Origin: Mesonia profundi
GTDB lineage: Bacteria; Bacteroidota; Bacteroidia; Flavobacteriales; Flavobacteriaceae
Reading direction: 5' to 3'
NCBI RefSeq assembly: GCF_031085155.1
Contig: NZ_JAVHUL010000013.1
Coordinates: 1 to 64,000 of the forward strand
Length of the DNA stretch: 64,000 bases
In this document: positions 7,365 through 27,572 of the stretch, piece by piece
How positions within the stretch are numbered: position 1 is the stretch's first letter
Layout of the letters: every line of letters begins with the position of its first letter
Notes under the pieces: model-generated
What the model was told of the DNA's origin: nothing
The model's database searches: none
The model's input: the letters and a program-made list of their open reading frames with translations, nothing else
Made by a program: the position numbers and the translations under genes

Positions 7365-7438
7365 GGTCTGGTAGTTCAGTTGGTTAGAATACCTGCCTGT
7401 CACGCAGGGGGTCGCGAGTTCGAGTCTCGTCCAGACCG
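7365..7438 (+). tRNA. tRNA-Asp (anticodon GTC)
   Basis: Full cloverleaf by eye. The acceptor stem GGTCTGG pairs with CCAGACC. The anticodon arm is CCTGC-CTGTCAC-GCAGG with anticodon GTC. The T arm is visible as GCGAG-TTCGAGT-CTCGT, and G is the discriminator base, as expected for Asp. CCA is not encoded. The 3' end serves as attachment site for element 1, and the gene stays intact on the left side. Confidence 0.96.
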
Positions 7439-7439
7439 C
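7417..7439 (+). other. attL of element 1 (tRNA 3' end)
   Basis: The 23 bases from the T arm through the discriminator plus one base are repeated exactly at 19736-19758. Integration into a tRNA 3' end by a tyrosine recombinase duplicates such a segment, and the integrase gene lies directly inside this end. This marks the left border of element 1. Confidence 0.92.
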
Positions 7440-7459
7440 AATCCCGAATCATCGGGTGT

Positions 7460-7491
7460 AAAAAGCTTTCATTTATATGGAGGCTTTTTTT
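7460..7491 (+). terminator. terminator behind tRNA-Asp, inside element 1
   Basis: AAAAAGCTTTC and GGAGGCTTTTTTT form a stem with G-U pairs around the loop and end in a T-run. A small hairpin CCCGA-atca-TCGGG precedes it. Because it lies beyond attL, the element supplies it; the native tRNA terminator should lie beyond attR. Confidence 0.7.
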
Positions 7492-7552
7492 ACGAAGTTG
7501 TGTTGTGTATGTCAAGTTAATCTTGGCATCTAGGTTTAAGTAGTGTTAAACC

Positions 7553-7592
7553 AATGAAGAGCTTTTCCTGTTATAGGGAGAGGCTTTTTTTG
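7553..7592 (+). terminator. second terminator-like hairpin
   Basis: AGCTTTTCCT pairs loosely, with G-U pairs, with AGGGAGAGGCT and is followed by TTTTTTT. Its 3' arm and T-run repeat the GAGGCTTTTTTT motif of the hairpin 90 bp upstream. Two such units may insulate the integrase from tRNA read-through. Confidence 0.55.
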
Positions 7593-7615
7593 TTTGGGAG
7601 AGGTTTTGCTCTTTT

Positions 7616-7710: not shown

Positions 7711-8919
7711 ATGTACGACTACAAGATTTCAATTTTATTTTATTTACAAAAATCAAAAAAGAACAAGAGAAATAAATGTTCAGTAATTTGTAGGTTAACC
7801 TATAATAAAAAGCGCAAACAGTTTTCTACAGGTATATCTTTAGAAGAAATTGACTGGGATGCTAAGAAGCAAGTTTCTAAGAATAACCAAATTAATGATC
7901 AGTTAGAGATTATTAGTTCAGAGATAAAATCAGTTTTTCTAAAGCTTAAGATTTCTCAAACTCCATTTACAGTGAATGACATTTATAAGGAGTTTAAAGG
8001 AGAAACTAAATCTAAAGAATATGGTGTTATAGAATACTATAATCTAGAGTTAGCTAAAAAGAAAAAACTAATAGATATAGAGCTTAATCAGGCTACTTGG
8101 AACAAATTCTTATATATTTCTAATCATTTAAAGGAGTTTGTGAAATGGAAATATGACAAAAGTGATGTGCTTTTAAATAACCTTACAATGAACTTCTTAA
8201 GTGAATTTGAGTACTTCTTAAAGACAGAAAAGAAGCATCAGCAGATTACTGTTAATAAGGCTACTCAAAGGTTTAAGAGTGTGATTAGGGCAGCTGTAGG
8301 AGAACAAATAATAAACAGAAATCCATTTTATGCACATAAACCTAAAAAAGTTAAGACTAAAATTGTTTACTTAAATCAAAGAGAACTAAAATCTTTAGAG
8401 GAGTATACTTTTTCTCAATCAAGATTATCTCAAATAAGGGATATGTTCATTTTTTGTTGCTATACTGGTTTAGCCTATGCGGAAATGTCTAATTTATCTA
8501 AAGAACATATTACTTTAGGTTTTGATGGCTTTAAGTGGATTGAAATGTATAGGAAGAAAACTAGCAGTTATATTTCAATTCCTCTACTTCCTAAAAGTGC
8601 CAACATTATAGTGAAATATATTAATGTGAAGTCTAATTATATATTGCCTAGAATATCTAATCAGAGATTTAATTCTTATTTAAAAGAAATTGCTTTAATT
8701 GTTGGTATTGAGAAGAGATTGACTCATCATATAGCAAGAAAAACTTTTGCTACAACTGTTTTACTTTACAATGATGTACCAATGGAAATAGTTTCTGAAT
8801 TGTTGGGACACTCAAAAATAACTATTACCCAAGAACATTATGGAAAAATAGTCAAAAAGAAGGTCAGTGAGCAAATGATTAAACTTAATTTTAAATTAAA
8901 AAATGATGGAGGCCATTAA
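7711..8919 (+). CDS. int: tyrosine recombinase (integrase) of element 1
   Basis: Site-specific recombinase expected to join the element to the tRNA-Asp 3' end. The N-terminal Arm-DNA-binding part (about 1-90), the SAM-like core-binding part (about 100-210) and the catalytic domain (about 215-390) are in the usual order. Catalytic residues seen: HHIAR near 339 (H-x-x-R), LGHSKIT, and nucleophile Y377 in EHYGK. The first arginine position reads TGLAYAEM instead of TGLRxxE, a substitution known in the IntDOT group of Bacteroidetes. The gene lies just inside attL and reads inward. Its stop overlaps the stop of the convergent gene. Confidence 0.93.
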   Translation: MYDYKISILFYLQKSKKNKRNKCSVICRLTYNKKRKQFSTGISLEEIDWDAKKQVSKNNQINDQLEIISSEIKSVFLKLKISQTPFTVNDIYKEFKGETKSKEYGVIEYYNLELAKKKKLIDIELNQATWNKFLYISNHLKEFVKWKYDKSDVLLNNLTMNFLSEFEYFLKTEKKHQQITVNKATQRFKSVIRAAVGEQIINRNPFYAHKPKKVKTKIVYLNQRELKSLEEYTFSQSRLSQIRDMFIFCCYTGLAYAEMSNLSKEHITLGFDGFKWIEMYRKKTSSYISIPLLPKSANIIVKYINVKSNYILPRISNQRFNSYLKEIALIVGIEKRLTHHIARKTFATTVLLYNDVPMEIVSELLGHSKITITQEHYGKIVKKKVSEQMIKLNFKLKNDGGH

Positions 8920-8935
8920 GCAGCCTCCATTTTTT
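8906..8935. terminator. bidirectional terminator spanning two convergent stop codons
   Basis: ATGGAGGC (8906-8913) and GCCTCCAT (8923-8930) form an 8-bp perfect stem. A-run 8898-8903 lies on the left and T-run 8931-8935 on the right, so it can terminate both strands. The loop holds TTAA (8916-8919), which supplies the TAA stop of the integrase on + and of the polymerase-like gene on -. Confidence 0.85.
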
Positions 8936-10379
8936 CATTCCAGTGTTCTATTTTTATTGCAGGAGCAACTCCAATTGCTTCAAATAACACTTTTGATAAT
9001 ACTTCTTTTACATAATGAACATTTTCTTCAGTTGTTATTATAGAGTCGTGTAATGTAAATAATGGTGCTTCTGGTCTAATATCTGTAATAATTTTACAGG
9101 CTTTATGAAGCACTATTTCTGCTTCTAAGTTTTGTAGTATACAAGCAAGAGCATTGTGTTTATTTTTTTTAATAATTTTAAAGATATGGTGTACAGAAGG
9201 AAACTGTTCTTTAAATAAAATCATTCCTTCATTTGGAAAATACCTTACTTTTTTAGTTTCTGGATCAATCACTTTACATTTTTCATTATTATGCCCAAAC
9301 ATACTGCTGAACATTATTTGTTTAGCTTTCTTTCTTCTTTTTGAAGGACAAGGTTCATCTATTAGTTGTTTTTTCTGTAATTGATCTCCAAATGCTTCAT
9401 AGAATCTCCCATTAGCAACTAGTTCAGTGAAAACCTTTATATCATCCGTATCATAGTTTGGGTAATTACAAAGTGCCAACATTATAGTGGATGATGCTTC
9501 ATTATTATATTTATATATTTTATCTCTAATTCCATTATCTTTATATTTTGTAGGATTTAAAATACTTAATGATAAGTAAGGTTGTGAGTTCTTAATATCT
9601 ATTGCCATTAATGGCTCTCCTTTGTACTTAATAAATTGTCTAAGTTCTCCTTTTAGTTGAGTTAATATAGTATGGACTCTTCCAGATGTACTGTCTTGAT
9701 GTAAGATATAATCTCGATCTTTAAATTTCTCTATGATTATTTTTCTGCTATAATACTTCCTTTCACAATGTGGAATTTCATTTTCTCTTTCTTCCAAATA
9801 TAAGTTGAATAACCATTTTTTTGCTCCGAGATAATCAAATTCTAGATCATCGTTCCACCACTTTTCTAAGTAATCCATAGTATTAGCAGTAATAGGAACA
9901 AATACTTCTTTTGAAGTTCTTTTTCTTTTGCAAATAGCCTTAATGAGCCTTTTCCAAGTTATAATGTACTTTCTAATATCTTTATTATATCTCAAAGTAA
10001 ATCTATAACCAGATGAAGTCAAGCCTGCTTGATATTTAAATAAACTTCTTTTTTCTAAAACCCCCACTCTTACTAAATAAATAAGATATTCTTTGTACTC
10101 CCTTACTCTTGTTTTAAGTATTACGCTATTTATAGGTGTATATCCATCCTGTAATTGAAAATCATAATCTTTCAACCTCATAGGGATGCTATAAATCAAG
10201 CTTACAACATAAGCTAACTTATCTTTATTAAATCTATTTATGTTAGGTGGGTATCTCTCAACCAATTCATCAATATCCAAATTTTTAGGTATGTATACAA
10301 AATACATTCTTGGATATTCATCTTTACTTGTATTAATAATTTGTACTGAGTTTTCCTCGTCATAATTTTCTTTATTCAT
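8916..10379 (-). CDS. stand-alone protein with family A polymerase-fold motifs (putative element replication polymerase)
   Basis: I do not recognise a named family. The 487-residue protein carries, in order, a complete motif set of the family A DNA polymerase / single-subunit RNA polymerase fold. These are a TGR-like T231-S-G-R234 followed by H236 and LR; motif A MAIDIKNSQPYL with D261; motif B R349-x3-K353-x7-F361-G362; and motif C LHDSI with D445. The metal-binding aspartates, the finger-helix Arg/Lys and the aromatic-Gly pair are all present. Motif C reads HDS, as in T7-type RNA polymerases, whereas family A DNA polymerases usually read HDE. No 3'-5' exonuclease motifs are seen. The N-terminal 200 residues are unassigned. 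The gene diverges from the Sak4-like ATPase across a 240-bp gap with an inverted repeat. A role in replicating the element is inferred. Confidence 0.72.
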   Translation of the reverse strand: MNKENYDEENSVQIINTSKDEYPRMYFVYIPKNLDIDELVERYPPNINRFNKDKLAYVVSLIYSIPMRLKDYDFQLQDGYTPINSVILKTRVREYKEYLIYLVRVGVLEKRSLFKYQAGLTSSGYRFTLRYNKDIRKYIITWKRLIKAICKRKRTSKEVFVPITANTMDYLEKWWNDDLEFDYLGAKKWLFNLYLEERENEIPHCERKYYSRKIIIEKFKDRDYILHQDSTSGRVHTILTQLKGELRQFIKYKGEPLMAIDIKNSQPYLSLSILNPTKYKDNGIRDKIYKYNNEASSTIMLALCNYPNYDTDDIKVFTELVANGRFYEAFGDQLQKKQLIDEPCPSKRRKKAKQIMFSSMFGHNNEKCKVIDPETKKVRYFPNEGMILFKEQFPSVHHIFKIIKKNKHNALACILQNLEAEIVLHKACKIITDIRPEAPLFTLHDSIITTEENVHYVKEVLSKVLFEAIGVAPAIKIEHWNEKMEAA

Positions 10380-10534
10380 TATATAAAATTGAATGAAGAA
10401 TTATGATTACGAATGAGGAAAACTACATTGGTAATCAGATAATTCTATTAAACAATTTTAGATAAGAAACAATTTAATTATATCAGTATTCTCAATCTAA
10501 ATCTCTGTAATATTTTTTCGAAGTAGCCCATTTC

Positions 10535-10576
10535 TGGGAGTCATTTTGGAATTACAAAGATACAAAATAACTCCCA
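10535..10576. repeat. inverted repeat in the divergent gap, candidate operator or origin
   Basis: TGGGAGTCATTTTG (10535-10548) and CAAAATAACTCCCA (10563-10576) are complementary except for one position. The spacer contains, on the minus strand, TATCTTTG (10562-10555), which fits the -7 box TAnnTTTG of a promoter toward the polymerase-like gene. No good TTG is seen at the expected -33 position. The rest of 10380-10620 is AT-rich without a gene. Confidence 0.55.
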
Positions 10577-10620
10577 TAAAACCTTAATATTTACTGTAAA
10601 TTTTTAAAAACCAATACATT

Positions 10621-11493
10621 ATGAAACTAAGACAATCAGAAAGAAAAAAAGCTAAGATAAAACTAGCTTTACAAGGAGCTGCTGGATCAGGGAAAACCTA
10701 CAGCAGCTTATTATTAGCAAAAGGATTAAGCAATGAGGCTTTATCTAAAGTAGCCATTATAGATACAGAAAATGGTTCAGCAGATTTATATGCTCATTTA
10801 GGAAACTACAATGTACTTACATTAGAGTCTCCTTTTACTCCAGAAAAATACATCAAAGCTATAGATGTTTGCCTACAAGCAGAAATGGATGTTATAATTA
10901 TAGACAGTATTTCACATTGTTGGGATTACCTTATAGACTACCACTCAAGCTTAGCAGGAAATAGCTTTGCTAATTGGGCTAAAGTAATGCCATTACATAA
11001 AGCTTTTATAAATAAAATACTTCAAGCAGATGCTCACATTGTAGCTACTATGCGTACTAAACAAGAATATGTCTTAAATAAAAAAGATGGTAAATATATT
11101 CCTGAAAAGGTAGGACTTAAAGCAGTACAAAAAGATGGAGTAGACTATGAGTTTACTATTCTATTTAATATTGATAATAAGCACTTTGCTATATCAAGTA
11201 AGGATAGAACAGGTTTGTATATAAATAAACCGGAGTTTACTATTAATCCTGCTACAGGAAAGAAGATACTTGAATGGTGCAATAGTGGTACTAATCTAGA
11301 AGAAGCTAGAGCTAAAATAAAAGACTGTAAAGATATAGAGTTGCTAAGGCAATTATACATTCATTATAAGCCTTGGAGAGAGCTCCTTGAATATGACTTT
11401 AAAAATCAAAAAGATAATTTACAAACTAATGAAATATTGTTAAACCCTAAAAACTTTAATCAAAATGGAACTACTACCAGTAATCAAAAATAG
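10621..11493 (+). CDS. P-loop ATPase, Sak4/AAA_24-like (phage-type recombination ATPase)
   Basis: RecA-fold ATPase of the kind found in phages and islands, where Sak4-type proteins assist single-strand annealing or recombination. The Walker A motif is G19-AAGSGK-T26 (LQGAAGSGKTYSSLLLAKGL). The Walker B-like strand is DVIIIDSISHCWD near residue 95. MRTKQEYVL near residue 140 fits the sensor region. Length is 290 residues. It overlaps the next gene by 29 bp, so the two are probably co-translated. Pairing with the divergent polymerase-like gene suggests a replication/recombination module. The family call rests on motifs only. Confidence 0.72.
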   Translation: MKLRQSERKKAKIKLALQGAAGSGKTYSSLLLAKGLSNEALSKVAIIDTENGSADLYAHLGNYNVLTLESPFTPEKYIKAIDVCLQAEMDVIIIDSISHCWDYLIDYHSSLAGNSFANWAKVMPLHKAFINKILQADAHIVATMRTKQEYVLNKKDGKYIPEKVGLKAVQKDGVDYEFTILFNIDNKHFAISSKDRTGLYINKPEFTINPATGKKILEWCNSGTNLEEARAKIKDCKDIELLRQLYIHYKPWRELLEYDFKNQKDNLQTNEILLNPKNFNQNGTTTSNQK

Positions 11494-12466
11494 ACCTATT
11501 ATAGAATCTAGTGTACCTAGACTTAATCATCCAACTATACCATCCTTTGAGAATAAACCTTTTATAGAAGCTAATACTATAGAGGTTAATATGAACCATT
11601 TAAAAAATGATTGTATTATACCTGTATTTAGTAAAGACAATGAAAAAACCATTGCACATCAAGAGTTTGTTGAGGTTGTTCAGGAGTGTATAGGTAAAAC
11701 CTTTAAAAGAGAGACTATTGAGAACCCTGAAATAAGGGTTTCTCATCAAATTAAAGGTAGAGTGCCTTCTGCCATTTATAAGCCAGCAAAAGAGCTGCTT
11801 GATGAGGAAAGGACTGTGTATTATGAAAGAATGGCTTTTATTATACGCATACCTTCAGTAACATCTGTAATAGATGGAAATAGAATTGCTTTAACTCTAG
11901 GAGGGGTTAGAGCCTACAACCAAGAGAATTTATACAATAAGAAAACCTATGAGAAATTTAAATTCTTTATAGGATTTCAAAATTTGGTTTGCTGCAATTT
12001 ATGTGTGTCTAGTGATGGATATGTAGAAGAGCTTAAAGCTGATAGTTTAGACAGTATGAAATCTAAAATCACTAAAGTTATTAGTGACTACAAGGCTATA
12101 GATCATATGCGTACTTTAAAAGATTTAGCAAATTACAATCTTACTGAACATCAATTCGCCCAGCTCATAGGAAGAGCTAGATTGTATAACTATTTACCTA
12201 AACAAGAGAGAATACTAATTCCTGATTTATTAATGAATGATGGACAAATCTCTACTGTAGCTAAAGATTATTATACAGATGAATCTTTTTGTAGAAATGC
12301 AAAGGGAGATATTAATCTTTGGAAGGTATATAACCTCTTCACACAGGCTAATAAGAGTAGCTATATTGACACTTTTTTAAATAGGAATATCAGTGCTTTT
12401 GATTTTTCTAATGGACTCATTAAGGCTATCAATGGTGATGAAAATTATCATTGGTTTTTGAGTTGA
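11465..12466 (+). CDS. DUF3871-like protein
   Basis: A 333-residue protein that resembles the DUF3871 family of Bacteroidetes mobile elements, whose function is unknown. It is soluble and has no signal peptide. Recognisable stretches are NPEIRVSHQIKGRVPSAIYKPAKEL and ERMAFIIRIPSVTSVIDGN (an acidic and then a hydrophobic block), followed by a Cys-containing LVCCNLCVSSDGY. The C-terminal third is helical and polar. The start inside the ATPase gene (ATG at 11465) is supported by tight coupling. Association with a recombination ATPase hints at DNA metabolism, but that is inference. Confidence 0.6.
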   Translation: MELLPVIKNRPIIESSVPRLNHPTIPSFENKPFIEANTIEVNMNHLKNDCIIPVFSKDNEKTIAHQEFVEVVQECIGKTFKRETIENPEIRVSHQIKGRVPSAIYKPAKELLDEERTVYYERMAFIIRIPSVTSVIDGNRIALTLGGVRAYNQENLYNKKTYEKFKFFIGFQNLVCCNLCVSSDGYVEELKADSLDSMKSKITKVISDYKAIDHMRTLKDLANYNLTEHQFAQLIGRARLYNYLPKQERILIPDLLMNDGQISTVAKDYYTDESFCRNAKGDINLWKVYNLFTQANKSSYIDTFLNRNISAFDFSNGLIKAINGDENYHWFLS

Positions 12467-12539: not shown

Positions 12540-15500
12540 CTAGCTATTCTCAACTATTGCTATTTCCTCTTCATTTAAATCATAAAGCTCATATACCATT
12601 TGGTCTATTGCTTTATCTGTATGGTTTATTTTATTTAGTAATGCTTGGGCTTTTTGTTGTTCTGCTAAGAAGTAATCTTCCCAATCTGCTTCTTCCCCCA
12701 AAGAGAGTTTTATTTTTTTCTTTTTTAGCTCTTTTATGAATTCTGTAAAATCTAGTTCATACCAGTTATCTAGTTTTTTAGATGTTTTTTCTAATTGTTC
12801 TGGAAACTTCCTTTGTAGAGTCCTTATAAATTTAGTAGACACATTTTGCAAGTCTTTATTAAAACTCAACATTTGGTTAGTGCTATCAATAATTAAATTT
12901 GGGTTATTTGGAATTTCTGGTAAAGGAAAGGGTTTTAAATAATTAGTTTTAAACCTAAAATAACCTCCACTAAGTTCTGTTCCTGTGTTTTTTAAAAAGA
13001 ACCACATAACTTTAGAGTTTAGAATACCCAAATAAAATTTTTCATCAACTACGAAGTCATCATTTTTTACAAAAGAGTAAATCGTAGTAGGATGATAAAA
13101 CTCTCCTTTTTCATCATAACTCATATTACACCCTAAAGAAATTTCTTGAGTCATAATTTTTGGAATCTCTACTCCAGAAATACCCTGTTTTCTACTAAAC
13201 AAAAACCATTCATCTTCATTATCAAATCTTCTTTTTTCTCTCCCTCTTAAGAATTTTTCATTCTTTCTAAAATATTTAGCAGCTAATGGGAACTCTGACT
13301 CTATATCATTGAATTTTAAAGGTATAGTTTTATTTTTATTAATTTTATAAGGAAAAATAGTGAATAATGTGTTTGCAATATTTTGATATTTTGATATTTG
13401 ATTTCCTTTTATAAATGGTTTTAATATATCAAATTCTATTTCTATTTCTTCATCTAATATATCCGAGAAAAATAAACCTGTATTGCCATTATTCTCAATC
13501 AATTCTATTGTAAATAACTTATCACCCCCACTTGCTATACCTTGGAAAATTCTAACAAAAACATTATCAACTGTATATGGTTGCTGCTTTAACTTATTAA
13601 TAGTATCAAATATTTCTTGACTTTGTAAATCCCAATTATCTTCACATAAATTTTCATATAATACATAATCCCACTTAAAAGGATCATTGATTTCAATAGG
13701 TTTTATTTTTTTAAATAGCACCTTATTTTTTTGAGTTTTATCTAAGTTTATAATACAAGTATATGTAGAAGCATCAGAAAAAACCATATCTGAGCCAAAA
13801 TGTAAAATACTTTCAACTGCACATTTCTCTACAAAAAACTGTCGGATACCAACACCAAAATCTGTAACTAAAAATTTATGAGGTAATATATATGAAACAA
13901 TTCCTTTTTCATTAATTAAATCAAAGCTTCTCTCCATAAATAGAGCATAGATATCATAGTTAGCTGTTGCAGATTGGTACTTATTTTCATAAAATTCACA
14001 CATCTCAGGGTAATGCTCCATTAAACCCTGTTTTCTAACATATGGAGGGTTTCCTATGATAACGTCAAAACCTCCTTTTTCAAAAATATGAGGAAATTCC
14101 TCTTGCCAATTAAAAGCCTTAACCCCCCCAACTTCTGGATCATCTATTAAAGAGTTACCACATTTAATATTGTTGCTGAGGTCATTTAGTTTTCTGTTAG
14201 GTTGTGCAGTTCTAAGCCAAAGAGATAACTTAGCAATCTCCACACTTTCTTGATTTAGATCTACCCCAAAGAGGTTATTCTCAAGAATACTATTCTCTAC
14301 ATCACTAAGCATTAAAGCATCCCTATTGTACTTGGCAGAAAGTTCATCAATATATCTATGTTCTGCAATTAAATGATTTAATGCTTCATTTAAAAAAGCA
14401 CCAGAACCACAAGCAGGATCACAAATGGTAAGTTGTAAGAGCCAATCTCTATAGTTTTGAAGATTCTCTAATCTTTTTCTACTTCTTTTAATAGCAGGTT
14501 GGTATGCTTCATCTGTAATATCTAATTCTAATCTTTTTACTTCACAGAGTTTTCCTACAGTATTATCAACTATATATTTGGTGATGTATTTAGGAGTGTA
14601 AAAAACTCCATCTTTTTTTCTTTTACTTTTAGATTTATCAATTTCTTGTCCTTCAAGTTCAGCTTGTATTTCTTCAAGTTCATTTAAAGAGTTTTCAAAA
14701 ATGTGCCCTAGTATATTTACATCTACTTCACTTTGAAAATCATATTCAGAAAGCTGTTTAGTGTGTCTATATAATAAATCATCATCTATTTCTATAGTAT
14801 CTAGTACTTCATCTGGTTTGAATAACCCTCCATTATATGCAAATACATCATAACGCTTCCCTTTATAACCTGTATTAAGATAACCAAAATACTTTTTAAA
14901 TCTAGTGTATAGGGGTATGTCAACATCTCTATCTATTAAATCTTTCCAGTCACTTAATACAAGCCTAACAGAGTTAGGAGGTAAAAGCATTCTATCTTCT
15001 GCAAAGAATAAAAACAAAAACCTATCTAATAGCTTTTGTGATTTTTTAAATAATACTAGAGCATCATAATTGGGATTTAGAGCTACTAGACTATGATGTA
15101 GTTCTTTTTTAAATAAAGAATAATCCTTATAAAGTTCTTTAGTAATTTTATCTTCTTGACTAATAGATTCATCCTTTATTTTTTTGGGTATGTCTTTACT
15201 TATATTTTCATAAGCTAGAACTAAATAAAGAACCTTAAACTGTTCTTTTGTAAGTGTGAAAAGGTTAAATTCTATATGTTCAATAGCATTGTCAATGTAG
15301 AACCTTATTTTTTCAAAGTTTGAGGTTATTACATAGACACACTCTGGTTGGTTATTTTTATAACCAAATGCCTGAACTTCTACTTTGGATAAGTCTGTAG
15401 TTTCTGTACCCTTAAGTTCAATAACTCCTTTAACTTGGTTATTTACTAAAATAGCTCCATCAGCTTTTTTAGAATCCTTTACATTTTTATACTCTGTGTT

Positions 15501-15722
15501 GAGGTTAAAATCTGGATTGGGATTTAGAGTATAGCCTAAAACCTTAACAAAGAGCTCTCTTAAAAACCCTTCCTGAAATTGCTCTTCTTTGCTATTTCTT
15601 ATATTGGTTTGTATCTCTGGATTTTTAAAATAGGCATTAAACTGTTCCCATTTTGCTTCTATAGTTGCTTGGTCTAGGGCTTGTAAATATTTTTTTACAA
15701 CAGTATCTTGAAATAATGACAT
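12540..15722 (-). CDS. type IIG restriction-modification enzyme (nuclease + N6-adenine methyltransferase + specificity region)
   Basis: A single chain that cuts and methylates DNA. The N-terminal PD-(D/E)xK nuclease shows D88 in ADGAI and E102-L-K104. The methyltransferase core has motif I DPACGSGAF near residue 436 and motif IV GNPPYVRKQ near 555, typical of gamma-class N6-adenine enzymes such as Eco57I. A TaqI-like target-recognition region follows, and the C-terminal 150 residues are rich in charged helices. At 1060 residues it has the normal length for the class. It faces its own terminator region and has no separate methylase or specificity gene, so it is likely self-contained. As cargo it would protect the host and stabilise element 1. 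Confidence 0.92.
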   Translation of the reverse strand: MSLFQDTVVKKYLQALDQATIEAKWEQFNAYFKNPEIQTNIRNSKEEQFQEGFLRELFVKVLGYTLNPNPDFNLNTEYKNVKDSKKADGAILVNNQVKGVIELKGTETTDLSKVEVQAFGYKNNQPECVYVITSNFEKIRFYIDNAIEHIEFNLFTLTKEQFKVLYLVLAYENISKDIPKKIKDESISQEDKITKELYKDYSLFKKELHHSLVALNPNYDALVLFKKSQKLLDRFLFLFFAEDRMLLPPNSVRLVLSDWKDLIDRDVDIPLYTRFKKYFGYLNTGYKGKRYDVFAYNGGLFKPDEVLDTIEIDDDLLYRHTKQLSEYDFQSEVDVNILGHIFENSLNELEEIQAELEGQEIDKSKSKRKKDGVFYTPKYITKYIVDNTVGKLCEVKRLELDITDEAYQPAIKRSRKRLENLQNYRDWLLQLTICDPACGSGAFLNEALNHLIAEHRYIDELSAKYNRDALMLSDVENSILENNLFGVDLNQESVEIAKLSLWLRTAQPNRKLNDLSNNIKCGNSLIDDPEVGGVKAFNWQEEFPHIFEKGGFDVIIGNPPYVRKQGLMEHYPEMCEFYENKYQSATANYDIYALFMERSFDLINEKGIVSYILPHKFLVTDFGVGIRQFFVEKCAVESILHFGSDMVFSDASTYTCIINLDKTQKNKVLFKKIKPIEINDPFKWDYVLYENLCEDNWDLQSQEIFDTINKLKQQPYTVDNVFVRIFQGIASGGDKLFTIELIENNGNTGLFFSDILDEEIEIEFDILKPFIKGNQISKYQNIANTLFTIFPYKINKNKTIPLKFNDIESEFPLAAKYFRKNEKFLRGREKRRFDNEDEWFLFSRKQGISGVEIPKIMTQEISLGCNMSYDEKGEFYHPTTIYSFVKNDDFVVDEKFYLGILNSKVMWFFLKNTGTELSGGYFRFKTNYLKPFPLPEIPNNPNLIIDSTNQMLSFNKDLQNVSTKFIRTLQRKFPEQLEKTSKKLDNWYELDFTEFIKELKKKKIKLSLGEEADWEDYFLAEQQKAQALLNKINHTDKAIDQMVYELYDLNEEEIAIVENS

Positions 15723-16508: not shown

Positions 16509-16946
16509 ATGAAAATATCAGAGATTAAAGTTTCTTATATAAATGAGCATAGTGCTCACTTAAAAGCTTCTAGTAGTGCAGATGCCTACACAATAGCTTT
16601 AAATAATTGGGATAAGGATATAATTGAGCTTCAAGAAGAAGTAAAAGTAATCTTATTGAATAGAGCAAATGGTGTAGTAGGCATTTATAGTCTATCTAAA
16701 GGAGGTGTTTCTTCTTCTATAGTAGATATTAAATTAATACTTAGTGTAGCTCTTAAAGCTATAGCAACCAGTATTATTTTAGTGCATAATCACCCAAGTG
16801 GCAATTTAAAACCAAGTCAAGCAGATTTAAAACTTACCTCTAGACTTATTAAAGCTACTGATACAGTAGATATAAAATTACTAGATCATTTAATCATTAC
16901 AAAAGAGTCTTATTATAGTCTAGCTGATGAGGGAAGGTTACAATAA
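16509..16946 (+). CDS. radC: RadC-like JAB/MPN domain protein
   Basis: A zinc-binding JAMM domain protein. The metal motif H-x-H-x7-S-x2-D is complete in HNHPSGNLKPSQAD. The preceding ILVHNHP strand and the following LTSRLIKATDTVDIKLLDHLII match the domain to its end. At 145 residues it lacks the N-terminal helix-hairpin-helix region of chromosomal RadC, as is usual for copies on Bacteroidetes mobile elements. The biological role of RadC is unsettled; a link to recombination or anti-restriction on mobile DNA is suspected from context. Confidence 0.9.
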   Translation: MKISEIKVSYINEHSAHLKASSSADAYTIALNNWDKDIIELQEEVKVILLNRANGVVGIYSLSKGGVSSSIVDIKLILSVALKAIATSIILVHNHPSGNLKPSQADLKLTSRLIKATDTVDIKLLDHLIITKESYYSLADEGRLQ

Positions 16947-17169: not shown

Positions 17170-17403
17170 TTAATCTTTAACCTCATCAATTACTAAATCA
17201 GCTAAGGAAACTTCTAAAGCTTCAGCTATTCTGAAAAGAGTATATATGGTAGGGTTAGTTCTTCCAGATTCAATTCTAGAAACATTAGTAGTATCAAAAT
17301 CACCTTGTATTCTAGCTGCTAGATCTAATTGCGTAAACCCTTTTTGCTCTCTTATTTTTAGAATCTTTTTACCAGTTAGTCTTAGTACTTCTGACTTTTC
17401 CAT
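17170..17403 (-). CDS. XRE-family helix-turn-helix repressor
   Basis: A small DNA-binding protein made of essentially one Cro/CI-type HTH domain (KILKIREQKGFTQLDLAARI, then TNVSRIESGRTNPTIYTLFRIAEAL). I place the start at the ATG at 17403, giving 77 residues. A TTG six codons upstream is possible but would lie inside the inverted repeat 17405-17422. It diverges from the membrane-protein gene at 17497, whose promoter overlaps that repeat. Autoregulation and control of the divergent genes are inferred. The stretch 16947-17169 before its stop holds no gene. Confidence 0.85.
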   Translation of the reverse strand: MEKSEVLRLTGKKILKIREQKGFTQLDLAARIQGDFDTTNVSRIESGRTNPTIYTLFRIAEALEVSLADLVIDEVKD

Positions 17404-17404
17404 A

Positions 17405-17443
17405 CTTGTCTTATTTGACAAGTCAAGGAAAAGTTTATATTTG
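17405..17443 (+). promoter_or_regulatory. divergent promoter/operator of the XRE regulator
   Basis: CTTGTC (17405-17410) and GACAAG (17417-17422) form a perfect 6-bp inverted repeat with a 6-nt spacer. TTTG at 17414-17417, 18 nt, then TATATTTG at 17436-17443 form a near-consensus Bacteroidetes promoter toward 17497. The -33 box lies inside the repeat. A further TTGTC half-site is at 17441. The repeat also covers the region just upstream of the regulator start. Confidence 0.7.
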
Positions 17444-19735: not shown

Positions 19736-19758
19736 AGTTCGAGTCTCGTCCAGACCGC
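19736..19758 (+). other. attR of element 1 (copy of tRNA-Asp 3' end)
   Basis: Exact 23-bp copy of 7417-7439, from AGTTCGAGTCTCG to CCAGACCGC. The rest of the tRNA is absent here, so this is a target-site copy and not a second tRNA gene. The AAGGTATGC repeat at 19665-19673 lies just inside. Confidence 0.92.
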
Positions 19759-19987: not shown

Positions 19988-21208
19988 ATGCGAACTTCAT
20001 CAACATTTTCAATATTGTTTTGGGTGTACGGAAAACGTGCTGTAAACAACAAAGCAAATATCTACATTCGGGTTACCTTAAACGGTAAACGTGTCAACAT
20101 TAGTCTCAAGAAGAAAATCAATATTTCTACTTGGGATGAAAAACTACAAAGAGCAAGTGGGACCGATAAGGATTCCCGTATTCTCAATCTTTACTTGAAC
20201 GAAGTACAATCAAAAGTATATAGGATTTACGAAGATTTCAAGAGGGATGAAGTGCCTTTCACTTCCCAAATGGTCAAAGCCAAATTTTTAGGCGAAGATA
20301 AAACACGTTTTTCCTTTCAAAACCTTGTTGATTACTACAATGAAAAGATGCAACATAAGTTGCATAGGAATACGATGGGTCAATATAAGACCAGTCAACG
20401 TTATATGATGGAATATATTCTAAAGGAATACAAACTGACAGACATCCCACTTTTCAATCTTGAATATGGTTTTATCGTGGGCTTTGAAGATTTTCTTCGG
20501 TCGTATGTACCTAAAAGCGGACAATCTAAAATTGGCAATAATACCGCAATGAAGCATATTAAGCGTTTACGCAGAATGGTTACTCTTGCCTATCGGATGA
20601 AATGGATTGAAAGAGACCCGTTTGTCAATTTTAAAATGAAAATTGAAAAGAAAGAACGTGGTTTCCTTACAGATTTTGAATTATTAAGTATTGAAGATTT
20701 GTCTTCTTCCATAGAGCGTCTTATGGTTGTGAAAGATTTATTTGTTTTTAGTTGTTACACCGGTATTTCTTATGTTGACATTGTACAATTAAATGAAGAT
20801 AATATTGTAATGGGTATAGATGGTAGTCCTTGGATAATGGCCGAAAGAGTAAAAACAGGTGCACCATTCAAAATTCCACTATTACCCAAAGCTGCAATCT
20901 TAATAGATAAATACAAAGACCATTATAGAACCAATGACACATCCAATCTTTTGCCCAAGTTATCTAATCAGAAATTGAACAGTTATTTAAAGGAAATCGC
21001 TGACCTATGTGGTATCAAAAAAAACCTGACTTTTCATATGGCGCGCCATACTTTTGCTACCACAGTAACTTTAAGCAATGGTGTTCCAATAGAGACAGTA
21101 TCTAAATTATTAGGGCATACCAAACTATCCACAACACAAATCTATGCAAGGGTCGTTGAGAGGAAAGTGAGTGATGATATGGCGCTTCTCAAATCAAAAA
21201 TTGGTTGA
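19988..21208 (+). CDS. int: tyrosine recombinase (integrase) of element 2, IntDOT-like
   Basis: Catalyses insertion and excision of element 2. The N-terminal Arm-DNA-binding region (SILFWVYGKRAVNNKANIY), the SAM-like domain and the catalytic domain follow in order. HMARHTFATT near residue 350 gives H-x-x-R; LGHTKLSTTQ precedes nucleophile Y386. The usual first arginine is replaced in TGISYVDI, as in IntDOT. The protein is 406 residues and is clearly homologous to, but different from, the integrase of element 1. DNA around it is less AT-rich than element 1. The ATG at 19988 follows an AATT-rich leader. Confidence 0.94.
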   Translation: MRTSSTFSILFWVYGKRAVNNKANIYIRVTLNGKRVNISLKKKINISTWDEKLQRASGTDKDSRILNLYLNEVQSKVYRIYEDFKRDEVPFTSQMVKAKFLGEDKTRFSFQNLVDYYNEKMQHKLHRNTMGQYKTSQRYMMEYILKEYKLTDIPLFNLEYGFIVGFEDFLRSYVPKSGQSKIGNNTAMKHIKRLRRMVTLAYRMKWIERDPFVNFKMKIEKKERGFLTDFELLSIEDLSSSIERLMVVKDLFVFSCYTGISYVDIVQLNEDNIVMGIDGSPWIMAERVKTGAPFKIPLLPKAAILIDKYKDHYRTNDTSNLLPKLSNQKLNSYLKEIADLCGIKKNLTFHMARHTFATTVTLSNGVPIETVSKLLGHTKLSTTQIYARVVERKVSDDMALLKSKIG

Positions 21209-23156: not shown

Positions 23157-26100
23157 ATGATTAACAAAATCATTTCATTTTCCATTAATAACAAGTTTAT
23201 TATTGGGCTCTTTATAGTGGCACTTGTAGGTACGGGCATTTGGTCTATGGCCACTATAAATCTGGGTTCTGTACCCGATATTACCAACAACCAAGTACAG
23301 GTTATTACAGTTGCCCCAAATTTAGGTACTGAAGACATTGAACAATTTGTTACTTATCCGGTAGAATTGGCAATGGCAAATCTACCAGACGTTATCGAGC
23401 TGCGTTCGGTGTCTCGTTTTGGATTGTCAGTTGTTACTATCGTATTTGAGGACGAGGCAGGCACATATCTTCCCCGGCAATTAGTGCAAGAGAAATTAAC
23501 CGAAGTTGCCGGAGAAATCCCCGAAGGCTTCGGCACGCCATTTATGGCCCCAATTACCACAGGTTTGGGCGAAATCTACCAATACAGCCTAAAAGTAAAG
23601 GAAGGCTACGAAGATAAATACGATGCAATGGAGCTTCGTACCATCCAAGATTGGATTGTAAAACGCCAAATGGCATTAGTTCCAGGAGTCGTCGAGGTAA
23701 ATGCTTTTGGAGGATTTGTGAAGCAATATGAAGTAGCCATAAACCCCAATAAGCTAAAAAGTTTCGGTATTACAATGAACCAGGTCTTTGAAGCCCTTAA
23801 AGTGAACAATGCCAATACTGGAGGTGCCTATATAGAAAAAAATAACCAAGCCAATTTTATCCGTGGCGAAGGCTTGGCCCGAAGTATCGCCGATTTGGAA
23901 AACACAGTTGTAACTACTCAAAACGGTAGTCCCGTTTTAATACGGGATGTCGCTGAAAAGGTTGGATATGGCAGCCAAGTACGCTATGGCGCTTTTACCC
24001 AAGATGGACACGAATCTGTGGGCGGACAAATTTTAATGCTGAAAGGCGAAAGCCCAGGCGACGTGATCGAAAATGTGGAAAAGCGTATTGTAGAAATTCA
24101 AAAATCCCTGCCGGAAGGCGTTTATATTGATGCTTTTTTAAGTCGAAGTGAACTTATTGAGGCAACCACAAGTACCGTTAAAACAAATCTAATAGAAGGT
24201 GCCCTTATTGTCATATTTGTTTTGGTCTTGCTTTTAGGAAGCTTCCGTGGTGGCTTGATAGCAGCGTCGATAATCCCTTTATGCCTATTATTTGCATTTA
24301 TTTTGATGAAACAATTTGGCATTTGGGCAAATTTAATGTCCTTGGGTGCGATCGATTTTGGGATTATTGTAGATGGTGCGGTGATTATCGTGGAAGGAGC
24401 GGTTTTCCACATTCATCAACGGATGAAAAAATCCACAACCGCCATTAACCAAGCTGAAATGGATGAAATCGCCTATGACTCTTCAAGTAAAATGATGAAT
24501 TCTGCCTTCTTCGGTCAACTAATTGTTCTTATAGTTTTTACACCTATTCTGTTTTTGACCGGTGTGGAAGGGAAAATGTTTCGACCAATGGCATTTACAT
24601 TTGGTTTTGCCGTTTTAGGGGCAATTATTCTTTGCCTTACCTACGTACCAATGATGTCATCATTATTTTTAAAACCTGCTAAAAATCAAAATAGTTGGTT
24701 TGCCAAATTTGAAAACAAGATTGATAGGTTCAGTGATAAAATTATGGGGGTTCTGAATCGTATCTATCTGCCTATATTAAATTTTGCACTTCGCTTTCGG
24801 GCAGGTGTGGTTATAGGCGCGGTTGCCTTGCTTTTGATTGCAGGATTTATTTTTAGCAATATGGGAGCAGAATTTGTCCCTAAATTTGATGAAGGCGATA
24901 TTGCATTTCAAGCATTGATAAAACCAGGGAGCAGTCTTTCAGAATCTATTGAGGCCTCAGAGAAACTTCAGAATTTAATCAATGAGTTTCCGGAAGTAAA
25001 AACAGTAGTTTCAAGGATTGGTGTGGCTGAAATACCAACAGACCCAATGCCTATGGATATTGCCGATAGTTATATTATTCTTGAAAAGGACAAGAGTAAA
25101 TGGACATCCGCAGATAGTAAAGAAGAACTCATAGAAAAGATTCAAGAAAAAATTTCAGTAGTTCCCGGCGTAAATTTTGTGTTTACACAACCTGTAGATC
25201 TTCGTTTTAATGAATTGCTGACTGGTGTCCGTGAAGACGTGGCCATCAAATTGTACGGAGAAGATTTGGACGTTTTGGCAGACAAGATACAGGAAATCGC
25301 GGCAGTAATTAGGACCGTTCCCGGAGCGGCTGACATTAATGTGGAGGCTACAAGTGGTTTGCCACAAATGACGGTGGTATATAACCGTGCGAAAATGGCA
25401 CAATACGGTGTAACCGTTGATAAGCTGAATGATTATGTAAGTGCTTCATTTTCAGGAGAACAGGCAGGAGTCATTTTTGAAGGGGAAAAACGGTTCGATG
25501 TGGTCATTCGTTTGGCAGAGGAATATCGACAAGACATCAATAGCTTAAAAAACCTTTATATAGACCTGCCAAACGGTGCACAAGTACCATTAAAGGAGGT
25601 GGCAGATATCAGCTATAAACCCGGACCAATGCAGATTTCAAGAGACAATACCTCTCGTCGTACTTCCGTGGGCGTGAATGTTCGTGGGCGCGATGTAAAA
25701 TCGATGGTCGAGGAAATTCAACAAAAATTGGAAACGGATGTTAAACTGCCACCAGGTTATTTTGTAACCTACGGCGGATCATTTGAAAACCTACAACGAG
25801 CATCAGACCGATTGATGATTGTAGTCCCAATCGTTCTATTAACAATATTTGTTCTGCTTTACTTTGCTTTGAATTCAGTTACACAAGCCTTGATGATCTA
25901 TATGGCAGTGCCTTTGGCGGCCATTGGTGGCGTTTTCGTTTTGTTGATTCGTGGAATGCCTTTCAGTATTTCTGCCGGAGTCGGGTTTATCGTGCTCTTC
26001 GGAGTTGCCGTATTAAACGGACTCATACTCATAAATAAGTTCAATGAATTAAAAGACAGTGGAATGACAGATTTAAAAAAACGTATATATGAAGCTACGC

Positions 26101-27572
26101 ACGAACGTTTACGTCCAATTTTATTAACAGCCATTACAACAATTATGGGCTTTATCCCAATGGCGATTTCTACCTCTGGTGGTGCCGAAGTACAGCGGCC
26201 CTTGGCGACAGTAGTCATTGGAGGAATGCTTACGGCAACATTTCTGACCTTGGTGGTTATTCCTATTCTTTATTATTGGCTTGAATCGAGAAAGGAACGA
26301 AACAATAACGATGGAGGTGTAAGCTATGTCAACAAATCAACGAACATTGTAACCGTATTATTGATGGTTGGCGGTTTGATGGCTTCTGGAACTGCTTTTG
26401 CCCAAGACACCAATCAAAATGGAACAATGCCAAAAACCTTGACTGTAGATGAGGCCATTGCTATGGCAAAACAGAATTATCCATCGCTTAAGGAAAGTCA
26501 GGCATTTATTGAACGGGAAAAGGCACTAAAGGGAACGAGTTTTGACCTTGGTAGCACACAAGTTTTCACGGGCAAAGAAGAATATGGCAATAATCTTCCT
26601 GGAGTGCAAACAACCGTTGGCGTGCAACAGGGCAATATCGATTTGCTTTCAGGATTTTCAAAATCGAAGTTTTATAAAGAGCGCATTGCCTTGGGAGAAA
26701 AGTTTTATGTGGCCAGTGAACAACAGTTGGTGCGCAATGTGATGCAAGCCTATGACCAAATTAATTATTACAAGGCACAGTTGCGTTTTGCAGACCAATT
26801 GGACAGTATTTATGCCAATTTTAAGTCCGCTGCCCAACTTCGGAATGACACTGGAGAAACAGGCAAGTTGGAATTTATTTCAGCCTCTTCCGAATTTCAA
26901 CAGATTCAAGTGTTGAGGCAACAAGCTTTTGATGATATTGAAATTGCCAAACGTGCCTTAAAACAATATTTGGGAACGGATGAAACCATCGAGACGGTAG
27001 ATGGTTTTTACGAGCCATTGGATTTTATGGCGACATTGGATTCAACTTCGGTTGCCAATAACCCAATGTTGCAATATGCCTTGCAAAATGCCGAAGTAAG
27101 TAAAGCAAATGTGGGCGTTGAAAAATCGCAATTCCTACCGAAATTCAGTTTATCATATGGCAGGCAGGTTGTGGATGATGTTTCAGGGTTTAATACCTAT
27201 CAGGCAGGTATTAGTATTCCGTTATGGTTTTTTCCGCAGAAGTCAAGGGTTAAGGCAGCCAAGGCAGACGCAATGGTAGCAGAGAATCAATATTTGGAGC
27301 AAAAAGCGGTTACAGAAAGTCGTGTTTCACAATTGACCAAATCACTCGAAAAAACAAAGAAGATTTTGCAATATTACGAAGAAGGCGCACTATTGTTGGC
27401 AGAAGAACAAATTACCACAGCGCAGTTGGCTTCTAAAGAAGGCGAAATAGATTACGTCAATTATATCACCATTCTTAATAGTGCCATCCGTATTAAACAA
27501 AACCATTTACAATACATCAATCAGTATAACCAGCAGACCATTGATATGCAATATCAATTGGGCAATTTATAA
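23157..27572 (+). CDS. czcA: heavy-metal RND efflux pump fused to a TolC-like outer membrane channel
   Basis: A proton-driven exporter of divalent metal ions across both membranes. Residues 1 to about 1045 form the inner-membrane RND pump. The TM4 motif AIDFGIIVDGAV (acidic residues near 400 and 406) is of the CzcA/HME1 kind and points to Zn/Co/Cd-type ions rather than Cu/Ag. Near 1062-1083 a second signal-peptide-like segment appears (VTVLLMVGGLMASGTAFAQ). The last 385 residues are an outer membrane efflux (CzcC/TolC) domain with long coiled-coil helices. At 1471 residues this is an RND-OMF fusion, a layout known from Bacteroidetes. The adaptor gene follows 16 bp later. Confidence 0.93.
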   Translation: MINKIISFSINNKFIIGLFIVALVGTGIWSMATINLGSVPDITNNQVQVITVAPNLGTEDIEQFVTYPVELAMANLPDVIELRSVSRFGLSVVTIVFEDEAGTYLPRQLVQEKLTEVAGEIPEGFGTPFMAPITTGLGEIYQYSLKVKEGYEDKYDAMELRTIQDWIVKRQMALVPGVVEVNAFGGFVKQYEVAINPNKLKSFGITMNQVFEALKVNNANTGGAYIEKNNQANFIRGEGLARSIADLENTVVTTQNGSPVLIRDVAEKVGYGSQVRYGAFTQDGHESVGGQILMLKGESPGDVIENVEKRIVEIQKSLPEGVYIDAFLSRSELIEATTSTVKTNLIEGALIVIFVLVLLLGSFRGGLIAASIIPLCLLFAFILMKQFGIWANLMSLGAIDFGIIVDGAVIIVEGAVFHIHQRMKKSTTAINQAEMDEIAYDSSSKMMNSAFFGQLIVLIVFTPILFLTGVEGKMFRPMAFTFGFAVLGAIILCLTYVPMMSSLFLKPAKNQNSWFAKFENKIDRFSDKIMGVLNRIYLPILNFALRFRAGVVIGAVALLLIAGFIFSNMGAEFVPKFDEGDIAFQALIKPGSSLSESIEASEKLQNLINEFPEVKTVVSRIGVAEIPTDPMPMDIADSYIILEKDKSKWTSADSKEELIEKIQEKISVVPGVNFVFTQPVDLRFNELLTGVREDVAIKLYGEDLDVLADKIQEIAAVIRTVPGAADINVEATSGLPQMTVVYNRAKMAQYGVTVDKLNDYVSASFSGEQAGVIFEGEKRFDVVIRLAEEYRQDINSLKNLYIDLPNGAQVPLKEVADISYKPGPMQISRDNTSRRTSVGVNVRGRDVKSMVEEIQQKLETDVKLPPGYFVTYGGSFENLQRASDRLMIVVPIVLLTIFVLLYFALNSVTQALMIYMAVPLAAIGGVFVLLIRGMPFSISAGVGFIVLFGVAVLNGLILINKFNELKDSGMTDLKKRIYEATHERLRPILLTAITTIMGFIPMAISTSGGAEVQRPLATVVIGGMLTATFLTLVVIPILYYWLESRKERNNNDGGVSYVNKSTNIVTVLLMVGGLMASGTAFAQDTNQNGTMPKTLTVDEAIAMAKQNYPSLKESQAFIEREKALKGTSFDLGSTQVFTGKEEYGNNLPGVQTTVGVQQGNIDLLSGFSKSKFYKERIALGEKFYVASEQQLVRNVMQAYDQINYYKAQLRFADQLDSIYANFKSAAQLRNDTGETGKLEFISASSEFQQIQVLRQQAFDDIEIAKRALKQYLGTDETIETVDGFYEPLDFMATLDSTSVANNPMLQYALQNAEVSKANVGVEKSQFLPKFSLSYGRQVVDDVSGFNTYQAGISIPLWFFPQKSRVKAAKADAMVAENQYLEQKAVTESRVSQLTKSLEKTKKILQYYEEGALLLAEEQITTAQLASKEGEIDYVNYITILNSAIRIKQNHLQYINQYNQQTIDMQYQLGNL

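Follow-up and report, generated by a model that had tools for sequence, protein, structure and literature searches.

A prediction made in 2008 was that family-A polymerases of mobile elements act as primase-polymerases; the group concerned, the TV-Pols, is described as likely to prime as well as to polymerise (Iyer, Abhiman, Aravind 2008; PMC2579912); the legend of Figure 2 of that paper names Cytophaga hutchinsonii, Polaribacter dokdonensis, Psychroflexus torquis and a Flavobacteriales bacterium. The PolA-SSB primases, to which CcPol-MP of staphylococcal cassettes is related, are described from Bacillota with a small OB-fold partner and a helicase in one operon and with all or part of an N-terminal 3'-5' exonuclease, and in these accounts CcPol-MP is the only biochemically tested one among the mobile-element family-A polymerases compared here (Rice 2023, PMC10061031; Bebel 2020, PMC7581432). 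Two novel phage PolAs, divPolA1 and divPolA2, have been reported (Yutin 2024; PMC11348598), and PolA1-3 and PolA1-like groups have been distinguished in over 3000 species in an article whose main text does not contain the word TV-Pol (Timinskas 2026). Among the open-licence PMC titles listed for a family-A polymerase of Bacteroidetes integrative elements, we found no paper on the present family. Here, we describe one of its proteins, P0001, with 487 amino acids (aa), encoded at 8916-10379 on the minus strand of a 64,000-nucleotide (nt) stretch of Mesonia profundi (contig NZ_JAVHUL010000013.1, positions 1 to 64,000; the whole stretch is referred to as the window). P0001 is probably a family-A-fold nucleic acid polymerase and, as such, part of the replication module of an integrative element of 12.3 kb that sits site-specifically in a tRNA-Asp gene, that is, the replication enzyme of the element and possibly a primase-polymerase.

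Two sets of homologues were used to evaluate the active site: A1, 21 sequences collected by whole-protein similarity with no motif filter, and A3, which comprised P0001 and 56 of the 76 loci that were confirmed among 81 stretches from a motif-based scan of genome contigs (split, partial and most near-identical loci were dropped). The proteins of A3 are 423-626 aa long, mostly 440-520. An earlier sequence-only reading had recognised family-A motifs at T231-S-G-R234, D261 in AIDIKNSQP, R349-x3-K353-x7-F361-G362 and H444-D445-S446, without giving the strand, and all of them are present at these residues. The template-strand arginine of family A (R234, codon 9678-9680), the first metal-binding aspartate in motif A (D261, 9597-9599), the lysine of motif B RxxxK (K353, 9321-9323) and the aspartate of motif C HD (D445, 9045-9047; all codons on the minus strand) are found in 57/57 sequences of A3, as are E419 and H444, and R349 is found in 53/57; the family-A residue set (arginine before motif A, motif A aspartate, motif B RxxxK, motif C HD) is present in A3. 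In A1, R234, D261, S265, Y327, K353, E419, H444 and D445 are invariant (21/21). The two aspartates, the conservation of which had been named as a check, are thus constant in both sets together with R234, K353 and H444, whereas T231 and G233 show no conservation among homologues and position 362 is glycine in just 2 of the 57 sequences of A3 (mostly serine or threonine); position 361 is phenylalanine in 29 and tyrosine in 27. The SQP of motif A occurs in 57/57 sequences because the scan pattern required it, and in A1 only S265 of the three is invariant.

The close relatives of the polymerase are under purifying selection: among 18 close homologues, the ratio of nonsynonymous to synonymous substitution rates (dN/dS) was 0.07-0.18 in all but one of the 25 closest pairs, the exception having a dS of 0. 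P0001 matched nothing usable in Pfam, NCBIfam, PHROG or the PDB sequences, nor did the 21 members of A1 in Pfam or the PHROGs or the A1 profile against the PDB sequences; one weak lead was a match of two A1 members to phrog_4756 (function unknown; best E 1e-6). An ordinary chromosomal DNA polymerase I is encoded on another contig of the same genome, and P0001 is therefore not the housekeeping enzyme. The homologues make up a real, conserved and unannotated polymerase family of Bacteroidota islands.

An AlphaFold2 model of P0001, built on the A3 alignment, reached a mean predicted local distance difference test (pLDDT) score of 87.3 and a predicted template modelling (pTM) score of 0.86. Foldseek returned 90 matches in the PDB at E <= 0.001 (best E 8.3e-6), and all of the 50 listed are family-A DNA polymerases (Taq, Klenow, Bst, apicoplast Pol, Pol theta, mycobacterial Pol1 and others). 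The right-hand palm fold, the other check that had been named for this protein, is thus predicted to be that of a family-A polymerase. Among viral models, the best match in the structure search was A0A516L5C2 (409 aa; E 9.4e-22, TM 0.64/0.74), followed by a 'Putative DNA polymerase I' of an uncultured marine phage (E 5.9e-17) and, lower down, by proteins of Aeromonas phages 4L372D and 2L372X, Rheinheimera phage Barba31A and the Zamilon virophage. Two of these phages, 4L372D and Barba31A, recur in the list of divPolA2 relatives, possibly with the same proteins.

The predicted architecture consists of a suggested winged helix, then two thumb helices, then palm and fingers, with no exonuclease (the absence of which had been recognised before). 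The N-terminal winged-helix-like domain (about residues 26-150; 9930-10304, minus strand) was modelled alone as residues 22-160 (45 rows; pLDDT 89.7) and is made of helices and strands; its PDB matches had E values of 0.02-0.37 among those listed, none at or below 0.001. Most of these matches are winged-helix DNA-binding proteins, AbfR2, TFE-alpha, BigR, Fur and the N-domain of DnaD among them, and the model suggests a winged helix; no exonuclease was found among the 50 listed PDB matches of the N-terminal region. Two long helices in thumb position (residues 183-199 and 205-220; 9720-9833, minus strand) and the palm and fingers core (about residues 226-480; 8940-9704, minus strand) follow. The N-terminal 200 residues, regarded earlier as unassigned, still lack any usable match in the sequence libraries, but a winged helix and then the thumb are now predicted for them.

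The ends of the element are defined by exact 23-nt repeats of the 3' end of tRNA-Asp (GTC; 7365-7439, plus strand; tRNA call and Rfam RF00005), which is the integration target. The left attachment (att) copy lies at 7417-7439 and the right copy at 19736-19758, both on the plus strand and 12.3 kb apart; for the last 22 nt of the repeat, two matches were reached in 0/100 shuffles. With a tyrosine integrase (7711-8919, plus strand, convergent with the polymerase gene; PF00589, PF13102, PF17293) and direct repeats flanking it at the tRNA end, the host is an integrative element of tyrosine-integrase type. This association recurs: in 60 of the 76 loci, a gene of the integrase family lies no more than 6 kb from that of the polymerase, and in 40 loci both an integrase and a small helix-turn-helix (HTH) protein are present in the order integrase-HTH-polymerase (35 exactly, the rest as variants); the three HTH proteins tested all match HTH_17. 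In the remaining 16 loci no integrase was recognised, several of these contigs ending early. Of the 60 loci that were scanned for tRNAs, 23 have a tRNA gene next to the integrase, which in 20 of them is tRNA-Ser(TGA). In L062 and L066, exact 99-nt repeats 11.5 and 8.8 kb apart enclose the polymerase, each repeat consisting of the 51 or 56 nt before a tRNA gene and the first 48 or 43 nt of the gene (its 5' half). No second att copy was found within the sequence covered in 24 of the 28 loci tested, and 15-16-nt repeats in L051 and L075 were unconvincing as att copies.

Proteins similar to the L042 integrase were found in 134 of 299 genomes at 1e-40 and are far commoner than the polymerase. The slot downstream of 20 such integrases (56-64% identity) was surveyed over about 5 kb (3.4 kb in one), in which the A3 profile matched no open reading frame (ORF). 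Seven of the 20 encode an HTH protein similar to the one in the polymerase islands (in one weakly, E 6e-5). In six of these (L201, L202, L207, L211, L213 and L214, of which L211 and L213 are near copies with 251/267 residues identical) the HTH gene is followed by a conserved protein of 222-269 aa and then by a second conserved ORF; Pfam, searched with four of the six pairs, gave no family for the first protein and a P-loop ATPase for the second. The first protein also has a C-terminal GW...NW motif, which presumably recalls replisome organisers, and from their sequences the two resemble an initiator-like pair of Flavobacteriaceae islands. The seventh island (L209) has a DUF5906 D5-type helicase in the polymerase slot (E 4.9e-21). 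That unlike, replication-type genes replace one another at a single position supports a role of the polymerase in element replication better than any other observation. The idea that the N-terminus of the polymerase represents a domain of the displaced initiator was also considered and found no support.

Homologues are scattered. A whole-protein search without motif filter found them in 26 of 299 Flavobacteriaceae genomes and the A3 profile in 18 of 395 Bacteroidota genomes spread over the phylum (M. profundi included in both counts); they are also present in one of 72,556 plasmid records (a Hymenobacter plasmid) and in six of 50,697 phage records, all huge phages, two of which share length and position and are perhaps duplicates; a scan of viral contigs with the single protein found no relative. 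Three huge-phage homologues matched A3 over nearly the whole length in a profile-profile comparison (probability 100, E 1.6e-52). In a tree of 60 rows, P0001 groups with L035 and L036 (Winogradskyella) and L037 (Kordia) with support of 99/99, and the three huge-phage rows stand among Bacteroidota rows near L066 from Pedobacter (88/89, an open fork). In one of the huge phages (LR756511; L032, 7992-10435), the homologue overlaps by one base a second polymerase gene that matches PF00476 (71 bits), and two unlike family-A polymerases thus adjoin. A further homologue (L038), on a 4.9-kb contig labelled as a Methanosarcinaceae archaeon, groups with the Bacteroidota rows, the label being probably a binning error. 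In L069, L077, L092, L108 and L110 the polymerase ORF is broken into at least two pieces, either as decaying copies or through assembly errors.

In comparison with the TV-Pols, P0001 and its relatives show the same hairpin arginine, two catalytic aspartates and RxxxK, all of which are present in A3, and they share with them a family-A core of 400-600 aa that lacks a nuclease, as well as neighbouring integrases or resolvases and restriction-modification genes (PMC2579912). The fingers aspartate of the TV-Pols, however, is not conserved: the most aspartate-rich column of residues 268-348 has 19/57, and only G324 and Y327 reach 90% there in A3. A subset of TV-Pols has a fused or adjacent D5-like helicase, none of which was found by Pfam among the 11 scanned ORFs of the window element; a subset has an all-helical N-terminal domain, whereas that predicted here is mixed alpha/beta and winged-helix-like; and, with regard to the antiparallel two-helix thumb of the TV-Pols, the model has the helices 183-199 and 205-220 in the corresponding position. 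Because the fingers aspartate is not conserved and the N-terminus is not all-helical, we do not claim membership in the TV-Pols, although the Bacteroidetes TV-Pols of 2008 may turn out to belong to the present family. The A3 profile had no match in phage Ma-LMM01, which is listed as a TV-Pol bearer, nor was its TV-Pol located by motif scanning over 150 of the 162 kb of this phage.

The PolA-SSB primases agree with the present family in being mobile-island family-A polymerases near a site-specific recombinase and restriction-modification cargo (PMC10061031; PMC7581432), but neither the helicase (Pfam, window element) nor the exonuclease is seen here. By analogy, the polymerase would work like the TV-Pol and PolA-SSB enzymes. 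It is quite possible, though we favour it less than the replication-module reading, that P0001 is a primase for the element, or for the second strand of incoming single-stranded DNA, in the manner of CcPol-MP, the bulk of the copying being done by the DNA polymerase III of the host. CcPol belongs to the same superfamily, has proven template-dependent, primer-independent DNA synthesis with a partner that binds single-stranded DNA (PMC10061031; PMC7581432), and shares the context of recombinase and cargo; on the other hand, no gene for an OB-fold partner came to light next to the polymerase, though none was looked for by structure, and no D5-type helicase adjoins it. The neighbouring Sak4-like ATPase is a possible single-stranded DNA partner of the polymerase.

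The divPolA2 proteins are family-A proteins of phages, about 430 aa long; like P0001 they have a distinct N-terminal domain and lack a Pfam match (one member scanned), and seven phage sequences matched A3 by profile over residues 223-474 of 487 (probability 96.2, E 2.6e-9), with R, D, RxxxK, Q and HDS kept in register, so that palm and fingers are homologous at the profile level. They differ in being carried by tailed phages of Vibrio, Rheinheimera, Aeromonas and similar hosts, in an N-terminus that is not matched, in motif A and in the lack of a whole-length sequence match; the A3 profile had no match in the divPolA2-bearing record MG592441. DNA polymerase I (PF00476) is alike in predicted fold and catalytic residues, but P0001 lacks its exonuclease domains and any Pfam match, and the palm profile is not significantly similar. 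The sequence-only reading had considered a polymerase or primase of undescribed type, which is correct only in part, since TV-Pols, PolA-SSB primases and divPolA2 had already been published. In our view, the enzyme is of a known kind and what is new is its architecture and its context.

Motif C reads HDS in 47 of the 57 sequences of A3, the same as the HDS of T7 RNA polymerase aligned at that motif, and the D-x-x-x-S spacing of motif A resembles that enzyme as well. One might therefore think of a single-subunit RNA polymerase that transcribes the genes of the element or makes RNA primers, and a weak match of one of the 21 A1 members to phrog_2051 'RNA polymerase' (E 0.016) would fit. The profile-level relative divPolA2 has itself been proposed as a possible RNA polymerase (PMC11348598). 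We consider this unlikely for P0001, since the PDB matches listed are DNA polymerases throughout and the profile similarity to T7 RNA polymerase (a single sequence) is not significant; the N-terminus of P0001 is also different. With 487 aa, there is also no space for the promoter-recognition domain of the T7 enzyme.

The other genes of the window element begin with a Sak4-like AAA_24 ATPase (10621-11493, plus strand, divergent from the polymerase; phrog_124 E 1.3e-10, phrog_1366 E 2.1e-72, Pfam AAA_24 E 2.4e-18) and a DUF3871 protein (11465-12466, plus; PF12987, E 5.6e-135). A Type IIG restriction-modification enzyme follows as cargo (12540-15722, minus; PDLC03609, 1003.6 bits; PF07669), then a RadC/JAB-domain protein as cargo or accessory (16509-16946, plus; PF04002) and a small HTH_3 regulator (17170-17421, minus; PF01381); the remaining content is short ORFs with no assigned function. 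The earlier description of a small tRNA island with a Sak4-like ATPase and a divergent inverted repeat beside the polymerase, and without a relaxase (none among the Pfam matches of the scanned element ORFs), agrees with these findings. An exact 20-nt direct repeat, AAAGTGCCAACATTATAGTG, is present at 8594-8613 in the integrase gene and at 9470-9489 in the polymerase gene. If the element had acquired P0001 as a cargo enzyme for repair or translesion synthesis, this would be consistent with the missing proofreading domain, the adjoining Sak4-like annealing ATPase and the RadC gene within the same element. AAA_24 and RadC, however, were each found near the polymerase in only four of the 76 loci (DUF3871 in five), as opposed to an integrase family in 60, and cargo is not expected to be fixed beside the integrase, which makes this origin improbable.

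The inverted repeat (10531-10580, no strand assigned; GGGAGT...ACTCCC, 18-nt arms, 89%) surrounds TTTTGTATCTTTGTAAT, read towards the polymerase, a core that we take to be of promoter type. Palindromes lie beside TTTTGTAT.TTTGTAAT before the polymerase gene both in the window and in L036 (9764-9946), and the palindrome sequences differ. An origin was considered for this repeat, but an operator is more likely because the repeat brackets a promoter-like core and the similar core of L036 has another palindrome; it is likely the promoter/operator of the polymerase gene.

The cargo count for the homologous islands covered 32 of the 51 loci in which the integrase lies upstream, with 81 proteins from downstream of the polymerase (at most three per locus, irrespective of the island ends) and, for comparison, 91 of 115 proteins from the other side of the integrase in the same loci. 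At 1e-15, 320 PADLOC families were found downstream of the polymerase and 17, each in one protein, on the other side. Type III, II, I and IIG methylases lead among the 25 families listed, other cargo resembles heavy-metal genes by eye, and by these matches the cargo of the islands is rich in restriction-modification genes. Such a defence-rich neighbourhood might mean that the polymerase is part of the anti-phage defence system of the island and stands outside the replication module, but we regard this as very improbable: no PADLOC model matches P0001, and the polymerase stays beside integrase and HTH while the genes downstream of it change, from one type of methylase to another or to genes that look metal-related. 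The gene plan of phage satellites such as phage-inducible chromosomal islands (PICIs) and P4 is an integrase, a small HTH regulator, a replication gene and then defence-type cargo, in a tRNA gene. The polymerase islands follow the same plan, except that a family-A polymerase replaces the primase-helicase.

Several results weigh against the assignment of P0001 to element replication or to family A. Against PDB polymerases the model gives low TM-scores (0.21-0.39 by query) and high root-mean-square deviations (6-17 A), and the agreement is therefore local, in the core and not in the whole shape, or the domains are arranged differently. Profile comparisons with the palm of DNA polymerase I (12 Flavobacteriaceae sequences) and with T7 RNA polymerase gave probabilities of 0.5 and 0.6, aligning pieces at the O-helix and the HDS motif; they are weak as a test because the former set is narrow and the latter is one sequence. 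The window departs from the commonest plan, with an integrase convergent with the polymerase (as in eight of the 76 loci) and no HTH between them, and no helicase was found by Pfam among its 11 scanned ORFs. In the slot survey, 13 of the 20 polymerase-free islands had no recognisable HTH, and the displacement argument therefore rests on seven (six independent); only one of the four P-loop proteins scanned exceeded the Pfam cut-off (AAA_5, 24.5 bits, cut-off 22). Finally, the Hymenobacter plasmid carries its own annotated replication initiation protein and ParA, and the polymerase is therefore not the sole replication gene there.

With these points considered, the replication-module reading is still the one that we favour, and the suggestion that this is the own polymerase of a self-replicating element is supported by the integrase-HTH-polymerase module and by the displacement at the slot but falls short of proof. 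In this model, the integrase would excise the element, the enzyme would be kept on element DNA by its winged-helix domain, and its palm and fingers core would duplicate the excised DNA or begin strands there; the element would then re-integrate or move, and cargo such as the Type IIG restriction enzyme would go along. We infer that the polymerase replicates the element, binds its origin, is able to prime and makes DNA rather than RNA. A bolder proposal, which we find doubtful, is a one-protein replication starter, in which the winged helix would bind the element origin and the family-A core joined to it would both initiate and elongate DNA strands there without a separate initiator, primase or dedicated helicase; the integrase-HTH-polymerase islands would then be a Bacteroidota-wide class that spreads defence systems, and the same enzyme would have been taken up by huge phages.

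Two observations concern the surroundings of the element. A third copy of the att end, within a 219-bp repeat of 94% identity, starts at contig position 75971, and a second island of about 56 kb therefore seems to follow the first in tandem, between the att copies at 19736 and 75971 (the stretch from 19736 to position 76262 of the contig, C5), with its own tyrosine integrase (19988-21208) and, by its look, a large resistance-nodulation-division (RND)-efflux-like gene (23157-27572). The 140-160 bp or so after tRNA-Asp (window 7440-7600) are conserved in the genus and recur whole or in part a few hundred bases on in the relatives L163, L165 and L168 (about 485 bp apart in L163); this stretch had no Rfam match in the window.

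The family described here is compact and scattered over the Bacteroidota, and its genes are physically linked to islands with restriction-modification systems on board. The window element has exact ends, and its excision and replication are therefore directly testable. Should the polymerase prime by itself through its fused DNA-binding domain, it would show a family-A polymerase that starts DNA without a partner and would explain how these defence islands copy themselves.

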